A stretch of 64,000 nt of DNA, from positions 1 to 64,000 of the forward strand of contig JAQVMT010000001.1 of NCBI GenBank assembly GCA_028703495.1, read 5' to 3'. Within the stretch, counting starts at the first letter, position 1. Each line of letters starts with the position of its first letter. The notes under the pieces were generated by a model. That model made no database searches. It worked only from the letters and a program-made list of their open reading frames with translations, and was not told the DNA's origin. The stretch is from Clostridia bacterium (GTDB lineage Bacteria; Bacillota; Clostridia; Christensenellales; CAG-314). A program made the position numbers and the translations under genes. Below, in pieces: positions 365 to 10,059 of this stretch.

Positions 365-728
365 ATTTACATTCCATTATGGTTGGATTAGATACGTTGT
401 TAGTTTGTCTTATTGTGCAATCTCTGATTGAATTTACATTCCATTATGGTTGGATTAGATACCACTTTAGATGGTTATGTGTTAACATATGATTCTAAAT
501 TTACATTCCATTATGGTTGGATTAGATACCTTCAATCGCTTGTTGTAAACGCAAAGCATTAATAATTTACATTCCATTATGGTTGGATTAGATACAATCT
601 GAAGCCGAAAAGCTCAAACTAAAGGAACTTAATTTACATTCCATTATGGTTGGATTAGATACATACCTCTTTGTAGCTCTCTTTCAAAAATAGCCCAATT
701 TAAATTCCATTATGGTTGGATTAGATAC
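365..728 (-). CRISPR. type I-B CRISPR array, 6 repeats and 5 spacers
   Basis: A 31-bp repeat occurs at 365-395, 432-462, 499-529, 565-595, 632-662 and 698-728, with spacers of 36, 36, 35, 36 and 35 bp. Read on the minus strand it starts GTATCTAATCC and ends GGAATGTAAAT. The ATGTAAAT-like end fits the 8-nt crRNA handle of type I-B repeats, so transcription should run leftward, as for the cas genes. The leader would then lie at about 729-1004. Five repeats are identical. The rightmost (leader-proximal) copy has one change inside the handle (ATTTAAAT for ATGTAAAT). The array is short, which fits the loss of cas1 and cas4. Confidence 0.95.
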
Positions 729-1004
729 TCGTGTTTGGGGCAAAAATGATATCAATTTGAATATAAATTGCTCATTCCCTTAAATTATACCACTCAAACT
801 ATGAGTTGTCTACGAAAAACGCGTACTTTTGAATGTCGATGATACGGCATTTTGACAATACCGACCATCGACAGACTTAAAAACAAAACAACATCAACAT
901 TGATTCGATGCCCAATCGCATAAACCTTTCATACTGGTGTCGGACAGGTTAGACTAGGGTATGCTGTTCGTTTTCATATCTTGCTACATCTCTTGTTCAA
1001 CTGG
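729..1004 (-). promoter_or_regulatory. probable CRISPR leader
   Basis: This AT-rich, non-coding stretch lies between the array and cas2, upstream of the array in the direction inferred from the repeat handle. No single promoter stands out, so the call rests on position and composition. Confidence 0.45.
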
Positions 1005-1280
1005 TCACACAAAATTGCTGGTTTGATCCTTGTATTCGGTGAGGAATTCCTTGTCGAGCCACTTAGGCGAGCGCGATCGGAATATGATACACGAATCATC
1101 GGCACGAAGCCATTGATTTAATTCATGTTTTAGTGCCAAGAGCTGGGCACTGTCCAACTCGCCCTCGAACACCGAATTCTGTATGTGTGAAAGATACCTT
1201 TTTGCTATCTTGAATACGTTTCGCAAAACCCTCGGTCCACCGTCGTCAATGGTTATATCATATAATAAAATCACATACAT
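1005..1280 (-). CDS. cas2: CRISPR-associated endoribonuclease Cas2
   Basis: This gives a 91-aa protein of normal Cas2 length. It opens MYVILLYDI, the beta-strand with the early Asp typical of the family, and continues with RVLRNVFKIAKRYLSHIQNSVFEGEL, here read in parts, matching the first helix and the conserved SVFEG segment. The start at 1280 is chosen over longer forms because GGAGG sits just ahead of it. Cas2 forms the structural core of the Cas1-Cas2 integrase that inserts new spacers. Here it appears intact, but its partner Cas1 is only a remnant at 1873-2028. It should therefore be unable to support spacer uptake unless another cas1 exists elsewhere in the genome. Confidence 0.93.
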   Translation of the reverse strand: MYVILLYDITIDDGGPRVLRNVFKIAKRYLSHIQNSVFEGELDSAQLLALKHELNQWLRADDSCIIFRSRSPKWLDKEFLTEYKDQTSNFV

Positions 1281-1385
1281 ATTTCCTCCAGATGCGATAA
1301 CGACACTTTTGCCGCATTTATCGGAATAAAGTATCGATATGCTTATGCGGCGAGAACCCTCGCCTCTGTCCTGTGCCAATCTCAA

Positions 1386-1872
1386 TCTATATTACACAGC
1401 CAAAAAAATCTTTACGTTTTTGTGCATTTTCACGCTTATGAGTTGTGCTTTTACACCTTAAATACAAAAGTAGAGCGAGTAAGCTTAAATATCCTCTTTA
1501 CCTTTTCTTATACCGTGTTTTTTTGTTAATAAGAATAAGTTAAAACGTATTGAACATCATTGCGATACATTGTGTATCCTTATCCGCACAACTCAAGGTC
1601 TTGACTCTATTGCTGTAAAAACTTAAATATAAAACTTCAATAAGCAAAGTTGTAAAGCCTCGGATTACAATACGAAATATTCGTAGTGGCATTAACGAAA
1701 AACCTAGTGCTTAGATTTGTATAAGGGTTTTGTCATTAGTGCTTTACCTTGTTAAAGATTTACGAAAAACCTAAAGCTTAGACTTGTAACCTCGGTGCCC
1801 ACAGCACTTTGCTCAACTTGCTTATCTTGTCTATAATGCTTCTCGCTATTATTCTTTGCGGCGGTTTACTTG
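1386..1872. other. non-coding stretch where the bulk of cas1 would be expected
   Basis: No plausible gene is seen. The only structure noticed is a 27-bp imperfect direct repeat (ACGAAAAACCTAGTGCTTAG and on) at 1695-1721 and 1762-1788. It separates cas2 from the cas1 remnant and does not contain recognisable Cas1 coding sequence. Confidence 0.6.
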
Positions 1873-2028
1873 TTACCACCAAATCTTTAAGGGCTTGTAG
1901 ACTGTATCTGCTGCGCCTGTAACGAAGGCTCTTGCAAGAAATACGCGCTTTGCATTATCGGTGTAGTGTTCTACCTGTCGAACAAGCAAATCTCCCGAAA
2001 CGCTCCTTTCGCGAGCATAGAAGTTACC
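1873..2028 (-). pseudogene. cas1: cas1 remnant with internal deletion
   Basis: The frame reads GNFYARERSVSGDLLV, then RQVEHYTDNAKRVFLARAFV, matching the part of type I-B Cas1 around residues 60-110 that normally reads GSFYPRE...SGDLLVKQ.EHY.D..KR..LAR.FV.GA. It then jumps directly to VYKPLKIWW and a stop, which matches the extreme C-terminus of Cas1. The central and C-terminal catalytic domain, roughly 200 residues with the metal-binding Glu/His/Asp, is absent. The N-terminal domain is also missing, because the remnant is joined at about 2028 to the truncated cas4. There is no start codon or ribosome binding site of its own. Confidence 0.85.
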
Positions 2029-2251
2029 GCTTTTTAACCTCGCAAACCACTCCGTTGTCGACGAAGTCAATGACGCAGTCTTGATCGACAAAGGTGTGCT
2101 TGGTTTTTCTGCCGTAGCTTTCCTCGTCGAGTAGCTTGCCTATTTTGACAAGTTGGCTGTCGCTTTCAAAAGATATATTGTGGAAGGACAACCAGACCTT
2201 GCGTTTGCATAGGAAAAAATACGAATATAACGTGCCTCCGATATTATTCAT
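2024..2251 (-). pseudogene. cas4: truncated cas4
   Basis: A 75-aa frame starts MNNIGGTLYSYFFLCKRKVW. This contains the first Fe-S cysteine of the Cas4 CKRQ/CKRKVW motif, and it ends VCEVKKR, the RecB-nuclease EVKK motif. Family members run about 160-200 aa; the second half with the C-terminal Cys cluster is gone. The deletion joins the EVKK codons directly to Cas1 codons in another frame, and a TAA follows at once. A clean 45-bp gap separates it from cas3, so it was once the next gene in the operon. It is very unlikely to be functional. Confidence 0.88.
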
Positions 2252-2296: not shown

Positions 2297-4594
2297 CTAA
2301 ATGAATTCGCCTGTTTCTCCTACAGCATCCAAACCTGTAACATTGCTGTAATAGTTATTTGAGAAATAACAATCGTATATCGGTTCTTTTTTGCTAAGGC
2401 TTAATCCGCGGGAATACCTGTTAACGGATACGGTGAGCCTGCGCAGAGTCCGTATGTAATCGCTTTTGCATCGTTTTAGGTAGGAAATGTTACGCATAGC
2501 CGCTTGGTCCTTTTGTGGCAATTTGGCGGAGAGCCTTGACAAGGCGTTTATCTTTGAGGTCAATTTGTCGATTTCCTGCGTTATTTGATAGGCTTCCTCG
2601 TGCAAATTAAACGGTATTACGCATATGGTGTCCTCAATGCCTCGCAATCTTCGTCGTGCTTCGCTTGCATCGAAATACGCAGAATCCATTTCCGACATTA
2701 CGCGGTAAGTGTTTTCGAATCTCTTGTAATACTCGGTTTTCTTGATGCCGTCGGTTGCAAATACCTGTTCTATGTATGCCTGTTTGTCTGCCTCGGTAAA
2801 TGGTTTTTCTGTATATTCCGACAGGTATTTCACCGAACGGTCGTATATTTCATTGTCGTAGATTCTGCCACCCGCAGTATTCTTGGTATTATACACGATA
2901 ATGTTGGGAGCTTCCGCCGAGTATGCGCGCCCTCTGAAGCAACGCCCCATGCGTTGAATAAGACTGTCTGCCGTGGACATCTCGGTGTAGAGTATGTCGA
3001 AGTCGATGTCGAGCGACGCCTCCACAAGCTGTGTTGCAATCCAAATGCCGTGTTTTGTCTTATCTTTGGTTAAGGAAGTAATATCTAACTCCTTCTTGGC
3101 GCGGTCGGCTGCTATGAATCGGCTGTGGAGCAAATTCACCTTGTCTGTCGATTCAGCGATTTTTTTGTAGACCTCAACCGCCTTGCTTACGGTATTGCAC
3201 AGCACCAATACTTGCTTGTTTAATGCAGCGGCGGTAATTTCCTCGTAATTAAAATCGCCGTCTTTAAGAGTCACCCTGTGGCGCACGGTTTGAGTGAAAA
3301 AGGGTGCGGGACGGTCGAACGGTATATCCTTGGCACTCAACGCATCGGCAATAAACGGCGGCAATGTAGCCGTCATTATCATAAAAATACCGCCTAGCTT
3401 GTGCAACAGCTCCAAGCCGTACAGCAATTTAGCCACGATGTCGGGACTGTAGGATTGTATTTCGTCGATAACCAGCGCGGAATACGACAAGGTCGCCGCT
3501 ATCAATTCACTTCCTTTGGCGCGGTAGGCAAAGGCAAACAGCTGATCTATCGTGCAAACAGTCAGAGGAAAGGACAACTGCTTGGCGTTCTCGTACTTCT
3601 TCACGGCACTTTCAAAGCTCTGATCCTGCTCTGCTTCCTCGTTAGCCAAAAATTCCAACGCTCCCGAATGCAGTAAAATCGTGCTGTACTCCGGGTAGTA
3701 GTTGTTGTCTTTAATTCTTTTATAAATGGCATTGAGCGAAACCTTGAACGGCAGAGTATAAAAGCCCTTGCGCTTGCCTATCCACAGCAGTGCCGCTTCT
3801 GTTTTACCCATACCGGTGGAAGCCGTAATTACTGTGTTTTTTCCGCTAACGCTTTTTGCGTATGCTTGGCAGGGATTCAAAACGTACCCTTGTCGCTCGA
3901 AGTGCTTTTTAACGTTCTCCTCTGCATCGGAAGCAGGCATTTCGGTCACGCCTTCATACGCACTTGCGGCATAGTCGAGCTTGTTCAAAAGCCCCTTTAC
4001 AATGGCGTAACGTGTCCAAAGTCGTGGAAGATTGTCATTGTTGGAGGTCGCGAGCATATCGTAAATCGTGTTGTTGCGCACCTTGAGCGTTTCGTCGTAT
4101 ACGGCGGCAATCGGCTTTAGATCCTCTTCAGATACACTTCTGATGATTCCGTTCCTTTCGCCGATTCTGTCGGGTTGGATATCTCTGTTGTGGTGGCGGC
4201 AAATCGCCGTGATAAGCACCTTTAGATCGTCTTTGCCGCATGAGCCTTGGGACTTATACCATTCCGAGGGAACGAACGCCGCACTTAGAAAACCGTGAGG
4301 GATATCTCTTATCCCCAATCTTCCGTATATAGGACTTTTATTCAACTCCATCGGTGGCGTTTCGCCCTTTTGTTGATAGATGAAGCTTTGAAAAGCCGTG
4401 TTCATTTTCCCGAGGTCGTGGTAGTATGCGGCTTGGGCAATCAATTCCAGATTGCCCGTGCTTACCCGACTTTCGTTGCACTCCTTGAAATCGTCCAATA
4501 ACTGCAACAGCCGTTCGGTGTGACTTTGTATAGTTTCCTCGCACCCCTCGGGATTTAAGTCGCTTTTTGCTAAAAATTGCTCTTTATTTATCAT
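2297..4594 (-). CDS. cas3: CRISPR-associated helicase/nuclease Cas3
   Basis: The product is a 765-aa Cas3 with an N-terminal HD nuclease domain (HD at about residues 59-60 in YYHDLGK, and a HH pair in CRHHNR) and an SF2 helicase. Helicase motifs seen are STGMGKT (Walker A, about 258-265), VIDEIQ (motif II, about 375-379), MTATLP (motif III) and QRMGRCFRGR (motif VI). It unwinds and degrades target DNA after Cascade binding. The start at 4594 is used because its ATG overlaps the cas5 stop as ATGA; the frame runs open further upstream but that part lies inside cas5. All catalytic motifs look intact, so interference should work. Confidence 0.95.
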   Translation of the reverse strand: MINKEQFLAKSDLNPEGCEETIQSHTERLLQLLDDFKECNESRVSTGNLELIAQAAYYHDLGKMNTAFQSFIYQQKGETPPMELNKSPIYGRLGIRDIPHGFLSAAFVPSEWYKSQGSCGKDDLKVLITAICRHHNRDIQPDRIGERNGIIRSVSEEDLKPIAAVYDETLKVRNNTIYDMLATSNNDNLPRLWTRYAIVKGLLNKLDYAASAYEGVTEMPASDAEENVKKHFERQGYVLNPCQAYAKSVSGKNTVITASTGMGKTEAALLWIGKRKGFYTLPFKVSLNAIYKRIKDNNYYPEYSTILLHSGALEFLANEEAEQDQSFESAVKKYENAKQLSFPLTVCTIDQLFAFAYRAKGSELIAATLSYSALVIDEIQSYSPDIVAKLLYGLELLHKLGGIFMIMTATLPPFIADALSAKDIPFDRPAPFFTQTVRHRVTLKDGDFNYEEITAAALNKQVLVLCNTVSKAVEVYKKIAESTDKVNLLHSRFIAADRAKKELDITSLTKDKTKHGIWIATQLVEASLDIDFDILYTEMSTADSLIQRMGRCFRGRAYSAEAPNIIVYNTKNTAGGRIYDNEIYDRSVKYLSEYTEKPFTEADKQAYIEQVFATDGIKKTEYYKRFENTYRVMSEMDSAYFDASEARRRLRGIEDTICVIPFNLHEEAYQITQEIDKLTSKINALSRLSAKLPQKDQAAMRNISYLKRCKSDYIRTLRRLTVSVNRYSRGLSLSKKEPIYDCYFSNNYYSNVTGLDAVGETGEFI

Positions 4595-5370
4595 GCGGGA
4601 AATACTCCTATCAACTCCCCATCGACGATGTCCATAAGCGGGGCGTAGCTTAATTCGGTATCCGATTTTACACACCTTGCTCTTACCCGTTCGGAAATGC
4701 GCCTATATCCGTCCTTAACCTCGAAAACCTTGTTGAGAACATATTCCGTGGAGGAAGAATTACCCTCCAGAGCCTCATAATAATCTTGCGGAATCAAGGT
4801 GTCATAGCATAATATCGGATTTGTTTCAATATCCTCTTCGCTTGACAATTCCACCTCCTTAACCTCGTCAATTCGCAAAAGATCCTCGTGTCTGCCCAGC
4901 GAAGGGAAGATTTTTGGGTTTTTAAGTCCTTCCAATACCTCTTCGAAGTCCTCTTCCTCGGGGAAAATGTACAAGAGCAGCTCCAAATCTACCAGCAACT
5001 CAACATAGCCCAATCCGCGAGTTATTCCGTCCTTGCCTTCTTTTGTAAGCCCGAGTCGGTAAAAGTCATCGGCTGAACCGCCAATAAGCTCGTTGTCGTT
5101 TTCCTTGCGCGCCGTAAAATACTGATGGCGTGTTGCATCAAAGCTTATACCGAAGTAATACCTCGTATACATATCGCTGATCGAGGTATGATAACGTCCG
5201 GCTATCGAAACGTCCATCGAGTGATATTTTGTGTATCCGCAGGCTGTATGCACCATTCCGATAACGGTGGAATAAGGCGGCAGTTTGTAGCTGTCCTGAA
5301 TTGCAATTGCGGCGGGTTTTCGGAAGTTGGGCAGGTTTTGATACGCCCGAATCCTTATCGCCCTACGCAT
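4591..5370 (-). CDS. cas5: Cascade subunit Cas5 (type I-B)
   Basis: A 259-aa protein starts MRRAIRIRAYQNLPNFRKP. The segments YKLPPYSTVIGMVHTACG and TSISDMYTRYYFG are typical of the Cas5t branch found with Cst1/Cst2-type Cascades. Cas5 caps the 5' handle of the crRNA. The start at 5370 is selected because GGAGGAG lies 6 bases upstream and the ATG overlaps the end of cas7 (TATGCGTAG). Its stop overlaps the cas3 start, showing tight translational coupling across cas7-cas5-cas3. Confidence 0.93.
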   Translation of the reverse strand: MRRAIRIRAYQNLPNFRKPAAIAIQDSYKLPPYSTVIGMVHTACGYTKYHSMDVSIAGRYHTSISDMYTRYYFGISFDATRHQYFTARKENDNELIGGSADDFYRLGLTKEGKDGITRGLGYVELLVDLELLLYIFPEEEDFEEVLEGLKNPKIFPSLGRHEDLLRIDEVKEVELSSEEDIETNPILCYDTLIPQDYYEALEGNSSSTEYVLNKVFEVKDGYRRISERVRARCVKSDTELSYAPLMDIVDGELIGVFPA

Positions 5371-6256
5371 AGTACTCCTCCACATGCTTTTTGAGTATGT
5401 CGAAGAATTCACCCATATTTGTGCTGTGAAGGCTTTCGCTGATTTCTTTGCTATTGTAAAAGCTGCCGTCTATGTAGCCGCATACCGTACCTTCCTTCAG
5501 CTCTCCATACGAATCGATCACGCTTTGGAGCTTGCCGACTTCCAACTTGCCTTTGTCGAGTGTCAATCTGTTTTCGAAGAACGGATTTTTGCGCGTATAT
5601 ACGCCTCCGATAGCAAACACAGGTGCAAAATTCTCCCTTCTGCCCTTGATATCTCGATAAAGAGTGGCTATGGTATCCAACAAGGCGCAAACCCTTTTTG
5701 TCTTTTCCGTGTTCTCGATTTCGATATTTCCGTCTACCCCCACTCTGTCGAGGTCAACGGTAAGGGTATAGGTATAAAAAGACTTGTGAATCTCGCTTTG
5801 AACGATGCTGTTATTGGTGTTTAAACGCTTTGCCAAGCCCATATTGGTCAAAAAGTCCAAATCCGCCGAAAAGCTTTCCAAAGCAATCGCGTTGGAAAGA
5901 CGTGCCACCGCGGGGCGCACTGCCGCTCCTCCTGCTCTGTCTTCGCTCTTGGCTTTGGTCTTCATATATCCGAAAAGATCGATTTCGGGATACTTGTCGA
6001 TTGTCGCCTTGGGAGCAAATTGCACCACGGCTTCGCCGCTTCCGCCCTTGTAAAGCTCGGTTGTATCCCACCCAAGTTGGTTTATTATGTTATACCTTAT
6101 TGCCTGACGAGATATGTAGGAATAAGAGTTGCCGTCCCCTCGCGAAAGCTTTTTCAAAACCGTTATGTTACCGAAGCCCTCTCCGTAATTCGCGCTTTCC
6201 GCCTCAAAAATCAAACTTAACGTTAATCCCGGTTTCTTTGTCATATTATCTGTCAT
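5363..6256 (-). CDS. cas7: Cascade backbone subunit Cas7 (Cst2/DevR type)
   Basis: This 297-aa protein carries the early LSLIFEAESANYGEGFGNI segment and YSYISRQAIRYNII of the Cst2/DevR-type Cas7 family. It polymerises along the crRNA spacer and displays it for target pairing. AAGGAG precedes the ATG at 6256. The gap to cas8 upstream is 102 bp and contains no gene. The reading frame is complete, with length normal for the family. Confidence 0.93.
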   Translation of the reverse strand: MTDNMTKKPGLTLSLIFEAESANYGEGFGNITVLKKLSRGDGNSYSYISRQAIRYNIINQLGWDTTELYKGGSGEAVVQFAPKATIDKYPEIDLFGYMKTKAKSEDRAGGAAVRPAVARLSNAIALESFSADLDFLTNMGLAKRLNTNNSIVQSEIHKSFYTYTLTVDLDRVGVDGNIEIENTEKTKRVCALLDTIATLYRDIKGRRENFAPVFAIGGVYTRKNPFFENRLTLDKGKLEVGKLQSVIDSYGELKEGTVCGYIDGSFYNSKEISESLHSTNMGEFFDILKKHVEEYYA

Positions 6257-6358: not shown

Positions 6359-8086
6359 TTATTTGTCTGTCGCGGTACTCTCTTTCTTGTCACCACCGAA
6401 ATTGCTGTTGAGTCCTATTACATACGCGTAGCCGATTTCCTTAAAGGTTTCCATTCCCGCAAATACGTTCATAAGCACCGAGGGTATTTCTCTGCCCATT
6501 CCGCCGTACATACGCGTAACCGTGTCGAGGAACATATCTCTGTTTCCGGTGGAAAGTGCATTGGTAAGCTTATACACATAACCGCGCATCTTGTTGTCGG
6601 CATCCATACCGAAATCCTTACGCAAAAGCTGTCCGTCGTACTTTGCGCGCTGAACCGTCTTTTTTATTTCTTCCATTGTCTTAATCTCCTTTCCGCGCTT
6701 TTGCGGATGTGCTTTATTAGAATCGTCCGTCACGCCTTGACTTGCTTCGACGGCTACGTTGTCTTTGAGAAGTTTCCATGCACCGATTTGTTTAACTGCA
6801 TTTTGAATTACCTGAACCTGTAAAACATTGTCTGTAACGAACGTGCTTGCACCGCCGCGTATAAGAGTATCGATAAGTATCCATTGATTGGTGAAATTAA
6901 GTACATTATCCACGACCTCTGCAAATACGTTGATATAATCTCCGTCGCGCAACTTAACTTTGGAATTAACCATTCTCGCCAAGCTGTCATTTGCGTTTTG
7001 AAAGATACTCAAAAGCGACTTGCCAACCACATTGGACGAGTAAAAACATCGTTTGGAATTAAAAATCAATGAAACAACTTCGATTCCGTCGCTTTGTTGA
7101 CGCGCCATTTCCTGAAGCTCGTAATCAATCATCAAATTGAATACGTTTCCACGCTTAAGTGTGGGATCCTTAGCGTATTTCTCGGCAAGCGTTGTGTTGA
7201 TTCCGACCAAGGATTCAATGCTTCCGTTTCGATTTACAAACAGCCTATCCTTGTAGTACGCGCCCGTATCCACGCAAAAAAATCCAAACGGCATAAATGC
7301 GTACACGAAAGCGCATAAGGGACAAATATACGAGTCGGCTTTTTTATTCCAAAAAGTCGAAGTTTTTTTGGACATATCGTCAATATAGGACTTAATGAAG
7401 GTCATCTCGATCATAGATCCCTTATTCTTTCCGAATTGCTCCCTACACTGCATACATGCGACGGATTTCTTACCGTCTTGATAGTCGGCTTCATTTTGAA
7501 TTTGCGCTTTGACCTTATCGAATAAAAAGTCTTTGATGCAATCCTCAAAGGTTATTCCTTTTTTTATCGAATAGCTTCCCTGACCGTAAGACAAAAAGGC
7601 AAATCCGTTGAAAAAGAATTGGAAATTCTCCCATACGCATTCGGCTATTGTCAAATACATCTCCATCTCAGAGTCGTTTTTGAGCGCGTTTTGTATGTTT
7701 TTCGCGGTAGCCAAGCGATCCTTGGGATAGTGTTCAAACAACTCTTTCAAGTCGCCTTTTTCGTAATTATCACAAACGGTTTGATGTGTTTTTCGATTCA
7801 AGTAGTTTTCGAAGTTTTTCTTCAACTCGTCCTCACCTGACTCGTCTACGTCAATTGCCATAAACCTTGCCATTTTGGACTCTTTGCCGAAACTATCGAT
7901 TATAAAACCGATGTAGTCGGTTGCAAGATCACGTTCGAAAAACTCTTTATTTATAACGATCTCATCGTTTTCGAGCCTATAACCGTCGTACCCGATGTAC
8001 TTTAAAAAACGCACAAGTCCGACAATTCCGGCGTTGAACAGAGCGGTATCGGTGCGAATGCGAATTTTGTCGCCGTCAACTCTCAT
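6359..8086 (-). CDS. cas8b: Cascade large subunit Cas8 (Cst1-type, CXXC-CXXC)
   Basis: The product is 575 aa. Two CxxC pairs, CMQC near residues 211-214 and CPLC near 255-258, form the zinc-ribbon-like pair that gives the Cst1 family its CXXC_CXXC name. The N-terminal segment ALFNAGIVGLVRFLKYIG is also typical. In type I-B systems this subunit recognises the PAM and helps recruit Cas3. The start at 8086 has GGAGGTGTTGC upstream and overlaps the cas6 stop by 11 bp. A T7 run lies in frame inside this gene, showing that longer homopolymers are represented correctly here. Confidence 0.92.
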   Translation of the reverse strand: MRVDGDKIRIRTDTALFNAGIVGLVRFLKYIGYDGYRLENDEIVINKEFFERDLATDYIGFIIDSFGKESKMARFMAIDVDESGEDELKKNFENYLNRKTHQTVCDNYEKGDLKELFEHYPKDRLATAKNIQNALKNDSEMEMYLTIAECVWENFQFFFNGFAFLSYGQGSYSIKKGITFEDCIKDFLFDKVKAQIQNEADYQDGKKSVACMQCREQFGKNKGSMIEMTFIKSYIDDMSKKTSTFWNKKADSYICPLCAFVYAFMPFGFFCVDTGAYYKDRLFVNRNGSIESLVGINTTLAEKYAKDPTLKRGNVFNLMIDYELQEMARQQSDGIEVVSLIFNSKRCFYSSNVVGKSLLSIFQNANDSLARMVNSKVKLRDGDYINVFAEVVDNVLNFTNQWILIDTLIRGGASTFVTDNVLQVQVIQNAVKQIGAWKLLKDNVAVEASQGVTDDSNKAHPQKRGKEIKTMEEIKKTVQRAKYDGQLLRKDFGMDADNKMRGYVYKLTNALSTGNRDMFLDTVTRMYGGMGREIPSVLMNVFAGMETFKEIGYAYVIGLNSNFGGDKKESTATDK

Positions 8087-8807
8087 GCAACACCTCCACT
8101 GCTTCAAACATTCCGAATCCAACCGAACACTTGCTTCCCATACCCGCTTGATACAGCAGATTCAGGTCGATAATATCGCCGGTCAAGATATACTCGCCGA
8201 TATTACTCTGAAACTTCAGTCCGTCGCTTCGAATAACCGTGACAGATGCCTTTTGCAGAGGGCGAAGCGCAATCTCTTTGTGCATGGGATCGTATCCTAT
8301 ATCGCGGCGTAATCTTGTCAGCGACGTATTAATACTCTGCGTAAACTCCTCGTCCTTGAAGGACAAAAATCTGTCCTTATTATCGGCAGTATGTACGCGC
8401 ACCAATAACGGACTCAAAAATTTAATCGCAAGAGTGTTTTGCATGAGGACCTTGCTGCTCATAATCGTGCATTTATTGAGTTTGATCCGCTGTCCCAGTT
8501 TCATTGGGTAGGTCTTACCCCGTGCGTTAACCGCAGAATTGTATAAACGCATGATAAACTCTTGATTTATACCCGATACGGTCACGCTCATGAGTAACGA
8601 CGGCACCGTCGTGTACTCTGCCTGAATACTCGCGCGCGGTAAATACACACTGAAAGTGAAACCTTTCATTTCAGTTCTTGCGTACAACGATGTAAAATAG
8701 TCGGGATATTTCTCGCTCAATATGCTTTTAAAAAAGCTCAATATCCCAAACCTGTAATCGTTATCTAACCGCTCCGTAAGCAATTCGAATTCCAACCTCA
8801 ACTTCAA
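8076..8807 (-). CDS. cas6: CRISPR pre-crRNA endoribonuclease Cas6
   Basis: A 243-aa protein ends with the glycine-rich RNA-binding loop GMGSKCSVGFGMFE, the hallmark of Cas6. It cuts the repeat transcript to leave the 8-nt handle on each crRNA. Translation probably starts at a TTG (8807) placed 9 bases after GGAGGT; no ATG fits as well. It is the first gene of the cas operon, behind the leader with two identical candidate operators (8844-8862, 8901-8919). Confidence 0.9.
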   Translation of the reverse strand: MKLRLEFELLTERLDNDYRFGILSFFKSILSEKYPDYFTSLYARTEMKGFTFSVYLPRASIQAEYTTVPSLLMSVTVSGINQEFIMRLYNSAVNARGKTYPMKLGQRIKLNKCTIMSSKVLMQNTLAIKFLSPLLVRVHTADNKDRFLSFKDEEFTQSINTSLTRLRRDIGYDPMHKEIALRPLQKASVTVIRSDGLKFQSNIGEYILTGDIIDLNLLYQAGMGSKCSVGFGMFEAVEVLHES

Positions 8808-9041: not shown

Positions 9042-10036
9042 TTATTTGGATTCGTTATATAAGTCGAAGAGCGTTTTTGTATAGGCGCGAAGCCCATTCA
9101 CCGTGCTGTCGGGCTTAATGACCTTCAATTGCTTGCCAAACGAACAGCACCAAGCATAGAATTGGGGACTTATTTGGACGGACGCTTCGAATCGAATCTT
9201 ATCGCAAACCTCGTTCATTTTGATGTTTTCGCCAAACTTATCCATAACGGGATTTAACAAAGACTTTTCGCATTCGAAGTCTACGACGGTTTCATCTCCG
9301 ACATACATTCCGAATACCTCCTTGCGATGCTGCTTCAAGTCGAATCTATCGATTTGTTCGGACCTTGCGGCATCGAGCGGTTCAACCTCCACATAGTCCA
9401 TTCTGTCTATGCGATAGTGCGCGAAATTGTCGGATTTATCACTGTAACAGATGACGTAGTAGTTGTCGCTCCAAAGCATAGTCGCGCATGGTGTAAGCAG
9501 ATACCTTTGCTTGTCCCGTCTGTAAACCTTTTCTTTGCTTGCGTTGTAATCGAAATATAGAAATGAAATCTTTTTGTGAAGTTTAATGGCTTTCTCAATT
9601 GAATCGATGCTGTAATAAACGTATTCGTTCGTATGCTTGGTCGTATTGAAGTCAACAATGCTGCCGGTTATTGTGCTCGCACAATTTTTTCCGCAAGAGA
9701 AAGGATTTTTTTGACCAAACGTTCGGTTTTTCTCTCGGTAATAAAGCTTGCGGCTTGCACTGCATCCGAAAGTATTCTAAGCTCCGGAGTACTGAACACC
9801 CTATCGGCAAAATAATAACAATTAGTTTGGTTGGCTCCTTTGACACACATCACCTCGAAGCCGTATTCTTTGAGGATTTTTACATCGTTGTAGAGCGTTC
9901 GTCTGTCGCATGGCGCACCGCGATTGGCGAGCTGCTCCAAAATCGTTTTTGACGACATCGGATTTTGTTCATCGCTGGACTCCTTTAGAAGCTCATAAAT
10001 TAACAGAATTCGAATTAAATGCGGCTGTTTCCCCAT
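9042..10036 (-). pseudogene. WYL-domain transcriptional regulator, frameshifted
   Basis: The N-terminal part (10036 to about 9690) is a winged HTH: GKQPHLIRILLIYELL and CDRRTLYNDVKILKEYGFEV. It stops at 9668. The remaining protein continues in another frame: IVDFNTTKHTNEYVYYS, KISFLYFDYNASKEKVY and the WYL-domain core LWSDNYYVICYSD, ending at 9042. An A6 run on the coding strand (T6 at about 9685-9690 of the plus strand) marks the break; one more A would read LAEKNCASTITGSIVDF and restore one 332-residue protein. The start at 10036 follows GGAGGAGGA. WYL regulators often control CRISPR-Cas operons, and this one lies directly upstream of cas6. It may be a real pseudogene, a slippage-expressed gene or a sequence error. 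Confidence 0.85.
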
Positions 10037-10059
10037 AATTTCCTCCTCCGTATACATTG

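Follow-up and report, generated by a model that had tools for sequence, protein, structure and literature searches.

A type I-B CRISPR-Cas locus of a Clostridia bacterium with truncated cas4 and cas1 genes, probably recently decayed, and uninterrupted interference genes

In this study, which was based on a window of 64,000 nucleotides at the start of a 279-kb contig from a Clostridia bacterium (genome of 2.17 Mb in 54 contigs, 92.8% complete), we describe a type I-B CRISPR-Cas locus that, with a probability that we put at about 85%, decayed recently: its adaptation was lost, its interference is probably still usable and its spacer memory is fixed. The operon lies on the minus strand in the order cas6-cas8b1-cas7-cas5-cas3-[cas4-cas1]-cas2-array. 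The type I-B effector set of Cas8b, Cas7 (Cst2/DevR), Cas5b, Cas6 and Cas3 was found in one operon with NCBIfam and Pfam matches above the curated cut-offs, and an array of six repeats and five spacers with matching repeats adjoins the cas genes. In the cas4-cas1-cas2 adaptation module, cas2 has its full length while cas4 and cas1 are truncated and, judged by these sequence features, the locus is a decayed rather than a complete type I-B system. Its parts are given below, with a conserved site defined as a position that is 95% conserved in the relatives.

365..728, minus strand: CRISPR array of six 31-nt repeats with five spacers of 35-36 nt
729..1004, minus strand: putative leader, assigned from its position alone between the array and cas2
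1005..1280, minus strand: cas2, 91 aa, full length (PF09827 5.7e-18, TIGR01573 6.6e-10; conserved sites 14/14)
1281..1872, no strand: AT-rich filler of 592 bp between the cas1 stop and cas2, delimited by comparing the gap with intact relatives
1873..1905, minus strand: C-terminal end of cas1 (TVYKPLKIWW with its stop), in frame with the internal remnant across a deletion (relatives' Cas1 C-termini)
1906..2031, minus strand: cas1 internal remnant SGNFYARE...VTGAAD (TIGR03641 1.4e-11; conserved sites 7/7)
2030..2251, minus strand: cas4 N-terminal remnant to EVKK, then R and a stop at 2026-2024 (PF01930 4.4e-15; conserved sites 12/13)
2297..4675, minus strand: cas3, HD and helicase, uninterrupted (TIGR01587 5.2e-77, TIGR01596 7.5e-20; conserved sites 97/99)
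4591..5412, minus strand: cas5b, uninterrupted (TIGR01895 1e-29; conserved sites 18/23)
5363..6256, minus strand: cas7 (Cst2/DevR) (TIGR02585 9.9e-59; conserved sites 68/70)
6359..8122, minus strand: cas8b1 (Cst1) (TIGR01908 1e-7; conserved sites 10/10)
8076..8807, minus strand: cas6 (TIGR01877 6.4e-22; conserved sites 6/6)

The original prediction held that cas4 stops at EVKK and runs on, out of frame, into Cas1 at GNFYARE, which was borne out by the frames, the coordinates and the PF01930 and TIGR03641 matches: the Cas4 homology (2251-2030, minus strand) runs for 74 residues up to EVKK, after which come a single foreign residue (R) and the stop codon, and the Cas1 homology (2031-1906, minus strand) lies in another frame. 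The tail at 1905-1873 shares its frame with the internal Cas1 piece. It can be recognised as the Cas1 C-terminus because the protein ends in Y-x-x-FKIWW-stop in all five intact same-order relatives (L017, L018, L019, L021 and L022), in which cas4, cas1 and cas2 are consecutive; this confirmed the predicted jump from VTGAAD to a terminal VYKPLKIWW and the original stop. In tblastn, the tail matched the Cas1 of three of these five relatives with E values of 0.005-0.03. Reading it as contiguous Cas1 residues (NILRNLKYY) gave a worse fit. When the cas4-cas1 region was aligned with intact type I-B relatives, as had been proposed, approximately 490 and 620 bp were missing. These sizes are arithmetic against L017, the closest intact relative; the first deletion takes in the second half of cas4 with the opening quarter of cas1, and the second comprises the cas1 core. 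Only seven of the 75 conserved Cas1 columns are left, without the conserved catalytic core of a functional Cas1 integrase, and the metal-site region (Glu, His, Asp/Glu) presumably falls in the deleted part. The remnants of both genes together still keep 19 of 20 conserved sites and therefore the loss looks recent, the deletions probably being young.

The two predicted deletions, one across the end of cas4 and the start of cas1 and the other in the catalytic core, were both found, but a third rearrangement had been overlooked. The distance from the cas1 stop to the cas2 ATG is 592 bp in the window; in 90 loci with intact genes its median is 4 bp and it never exceeds 254 bp. The GC content of this filler is 36% compared with 45% for the window. 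Searches of its own genome returned no copy beyond one weak 38-bp match, there was no match among plasmids and phages, no RNA family was matched and no convincing similarity to Cas1 was detected. An origin as mobile or foreign DNA was rejected on these results. The filler holds a 31-nt direct repeat (1691-1721 and 1758-1788, 67-nt spacing) with 27 of 31 positions identical, while the best of 300 mononucleotide shuffles reached 21. The period of this repeat is the same as that of the CRISPR array; a relic array was nevertheless rejected because the motif is unlike the array repeat (p 0.41). The motif was absent from the relatives' loci fetched by then and from viral_contigs.

The interference genes (cas6, cas8, cas7, cas5 and cas3) are all single open frames whose matches start within the first 4% and reach at least 93% of each family model. 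The claim that cas2, cas3, cas5, cas6, cas7, cas8 and the array remain was thus correct in that the reading frames are uninterrupted, with cas5 being the weakest in conserved sites: its 18 of 23 is the lowest value among 123. This shortfall looks lineage-specific, because the next-lowest values (0.79 in L022 and 0.83 in L017) belong to loci with intact cas4 and cas1. With uninterrupted effector genes, Cas6 and Cas3, the five stored spacers can probably still be transcribed, processed and used; since the loss looks young, however, the intact interference genes are no proof of continuing selection. The five spacers of the array, which had also been foreseen, lie between six repeats at 365-728, and the leader-proximal repeat (698-728) bears one substitution. 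No second array with the repeat of this one was found in the genome. None of the five spacers had an exact match to its 26-nt piece in viral_contigs, the whole array did not match phages and the spacers gave only weak short matches in their own genome. At the contig end to the left of the array, positions 112-256 hold a 64-65 bp unit in tandem copies.

The sequence shows two deletions, of which one joined the first half of cas4 to an internal part of cas1 and the other took most of the cas1 core, and 592 bp of unrelated DNA separates the cas1 stop from cas2. The search for another cas1, which had been suggested as a check, found none: when the entire 92.8% complete genome was searched with a Cas1 profile, the fragment was the single match, while the same search was positive in nine of 14 control genomes. 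Given the known function of Cas1, and because no Cas1 was found elsewhere, a Cas4-Cas1-Cas2 integration complex would be unable to form. The predicted consequence, a system that still uses its five spacers but gains none, is a reasonable one. The spacers would probably still serve interference, and the memory could lose spacers but not update them.

It could be argued that the deletions arose from mis-joining in the metagenome assembly or from a chimera of strains, as the genome is divided into 54 contigs and this contig starts 365 bp from the array. We consider this improbable because the two clean junctions and the 592 bp with no genomic copy all lie inside one 279-kb contig, and similar independent deletions were found in other genomes. 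The chance that a Cas1 encoded in the missing part of the draft supplies adaptation in trans, so that the array still grows, is comparably small. Approximately 7% of the genome is unseen and such cases are known, with the L192 and L203 genomes carrying an intact Cas1 at another locus, but neither another Cas1 nor another array with this repeat was found here, and the array has few repeats, the leader-proximal one with a substitution. Far less credible still is the view that the small open reading frames, a 75-aa Cas4 head and a 72-aa Cas1 piece, are functional mini-proteins. The conserved sites kept in the remnants would fit with it; the few Cas1 columns retained, the out-of-frame fusion and the different leftover pieces in other damaged loci argue against it. 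The recent loss of adaptation by deletion remains our preferred reading.

Loci related to that of the window were collected from 80 relatives found via cas7, from 391, 206 and 28 genomes (the class and two families, overlapping) and from six order relatives, which together with the window gave 125 non-redundant loci that were scored with family models. A first contig scan with cas3 had found no relative, and when 41 genomes of the family were searched with cas8, the window was the single match. Fifteen loci were excluded by hand: 14 in which the contig ended before the adaptation genes, and L039, an ambiguous case, which was rejected as an adaptation-less locus because its contig ends in an array and an intact cas1 lies on another contig of the genome. 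Among the 110 scorable loci, all found through cas7 so that those that lost cas7 are unseen, cas4 and cas1 were intact in 92. Large adaptation lesions were present in 11 (the window, L044, L059, L064, L069, L075, L186, L192, L195, L198 and L203), a transposase-bearing insertion in cas1 in one (L185) and small frame lesions in cas1 in four (L051, L054, L084 and L091); two were set aside (L061, with no cas2 match, and L200, with the contig end past cas1).

Interference sequence was also lost in just one of the 11 loci with large lesions (cas3 in L192), and the other ten lost adaptation genes only (sign test, 10 to 0, p 0.002; 7 to 0, p 0.016, without the window, L195 and L203). Only large lesions distinguish the adaptation genes, since small frame lesions also occur in cas3, cas6 and cas8. 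No intact Cas1 was found elsewhere in nine of the 11 genomes, and one was present for L192 and L203; the latter is a second locus, which may never have had an adaptation module. In L195, the loss of the module adjoins IS-like genes. Across this I-B family, the cas4-cas1-cas2 end is subject to recurrent deletions, gene losses and IS insertions. In L185 (10224-12742, oriented along cas7), approximately 1.4 kb is inserted in cas1 with a transposase-like ORF on the opposite strand, and the genome has another intact Cas1. In L198 (9485-18729, same orientation), a cas4 stub precedes two arrays that differ in their repeat, one of 41 repeats and then one of 93; no Cas1 was found in this genome, which is listed as 100% complete.

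Short arrays accompany the large adaptation lesions, with two exceptions, and we regard this as suggestive. The six large-lesion loci with a complete local array and no other Cas1 have 4, 6, 6, 8, 34 (L186) and 41 (L198) repeats, whereas among 50 complete arrays from intact loci the median is 38.5 and the range 7-92 (one-sided p 0.0037; 0.013 without the window). Compared with all 79 intact loci that have arrays, where the cut arrays are lower bounds, p was 0.013. Thirteen intact loci with no array in the fetched stretch were dropped, as were the lesion loci L064, L192 and L195 (no array), L075 (cut) and L203 (another Cas1). For L198, the 41-repeat array was used, as its repeat end resembles that of the family, unlike the adjacent 93-repeat one. 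An earlier, smaller set (four deletion loci against 29 complete arrays) had given a cleaner contrast than the final one.

The close relatives L051, L069 and L070 offer a view of such losses between sister loci. L070 is intact and L051 has a 10-bp deletion in cas1; measured against L070, L069 carries independent deletions of 160 bp in cas4 and 202 bp in cas1, together with a premature stop close to the end. On the L069 branch, dN/dS was approximately 0.16 for the interference genes plus cas2 and 0.09 for the leftover broken cas4/cas1. The former could not be taken as a sign of selection after the loss, being no lower than the latter; most of the branch probably predates the loss because the broken genes have an equally low ratio. 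These values bear on whether the loss is a selected end state, in which a fixed-memory system is kept for interference or another role. The recurrence in 11 of 110 loci, with interference loss in only one of them and a sign test that stood at 9 to 0 when the window was left out (p 0.004), speaks for this, but finding loci through cas7 misses those without it, the remnants in the window are too fresh to reveal selection, the L069 ratios say little about it and neutral decay would look no different after a young loss. We therefore find a selected end state rather unlikely, even if less so than the other alternatives. It is a tentative proposal, somewhat better placed than the latter, that adaptation loss is a recurrent step in this family, which tends to strike the cas4-cas1-cas2 end, spares interference and precedes a contraction of the array, the fixed-memory state arising repeatedly across Clostridia.

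Compared with the intact type I-B arrangement (cas6-cas8b1-cas7-cas5-cas3-cas4-cas1-cas2), the locus is alike in gene content, order, profile matches and its array of 31-nt repeats, and differs by the truncated cas4 and cas1 remnants and the 592 bp between cas1 and cas2. Adaptation-less I-B loci are already known. PMC6079278 describes additional type I-B cas operons without the adaptation module in Clostridioides difficile, which like the present locus have interference without a working cas4-cas1-cas2 set; there, the genes are missing and a full operon is also present in most strains, whereas here cas4 and cas1 survive as remnants, cas2 is intact and a search for another Cas1 found none. Similarly, according to PMC12596717, provirus-encoded type I-B systems of haloarchaea have interference and lack the adaptation genes, but these are virus-borne and often paired with a complete plasmid system, and no such partner was found for the window. 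PMC8730458 reviews how adaptation modules were lost in other subtypes, and the dynamics of spacer loss are treated in PMC8047081. In the literature searched, which left most subscription journals outside, no study was found that surveys recurrent deletions of cas4-cas1 together with array length in this I-B family. The decay of this locus is ordinary and probably recent, belongs to a known kind and has a recurrent pattern behind it. Loci of this sort amount to natural knockouts of cas1 whose history can still be read, and a comparison of adaptation-less and intact sister loci (e.g., L069 and L070) would gauge how long interference and spacer memory persist without new spacers.

Upstream of cas6, a WYL-type transcriptional regulator (9042-10057) is split by a frameshift, with its HTH part at 9668-10057 and its WYL part at 9042-9479 and upstream. 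Similar regulators matching both halves were present in the fetched stretches of three of the 124 other loci.
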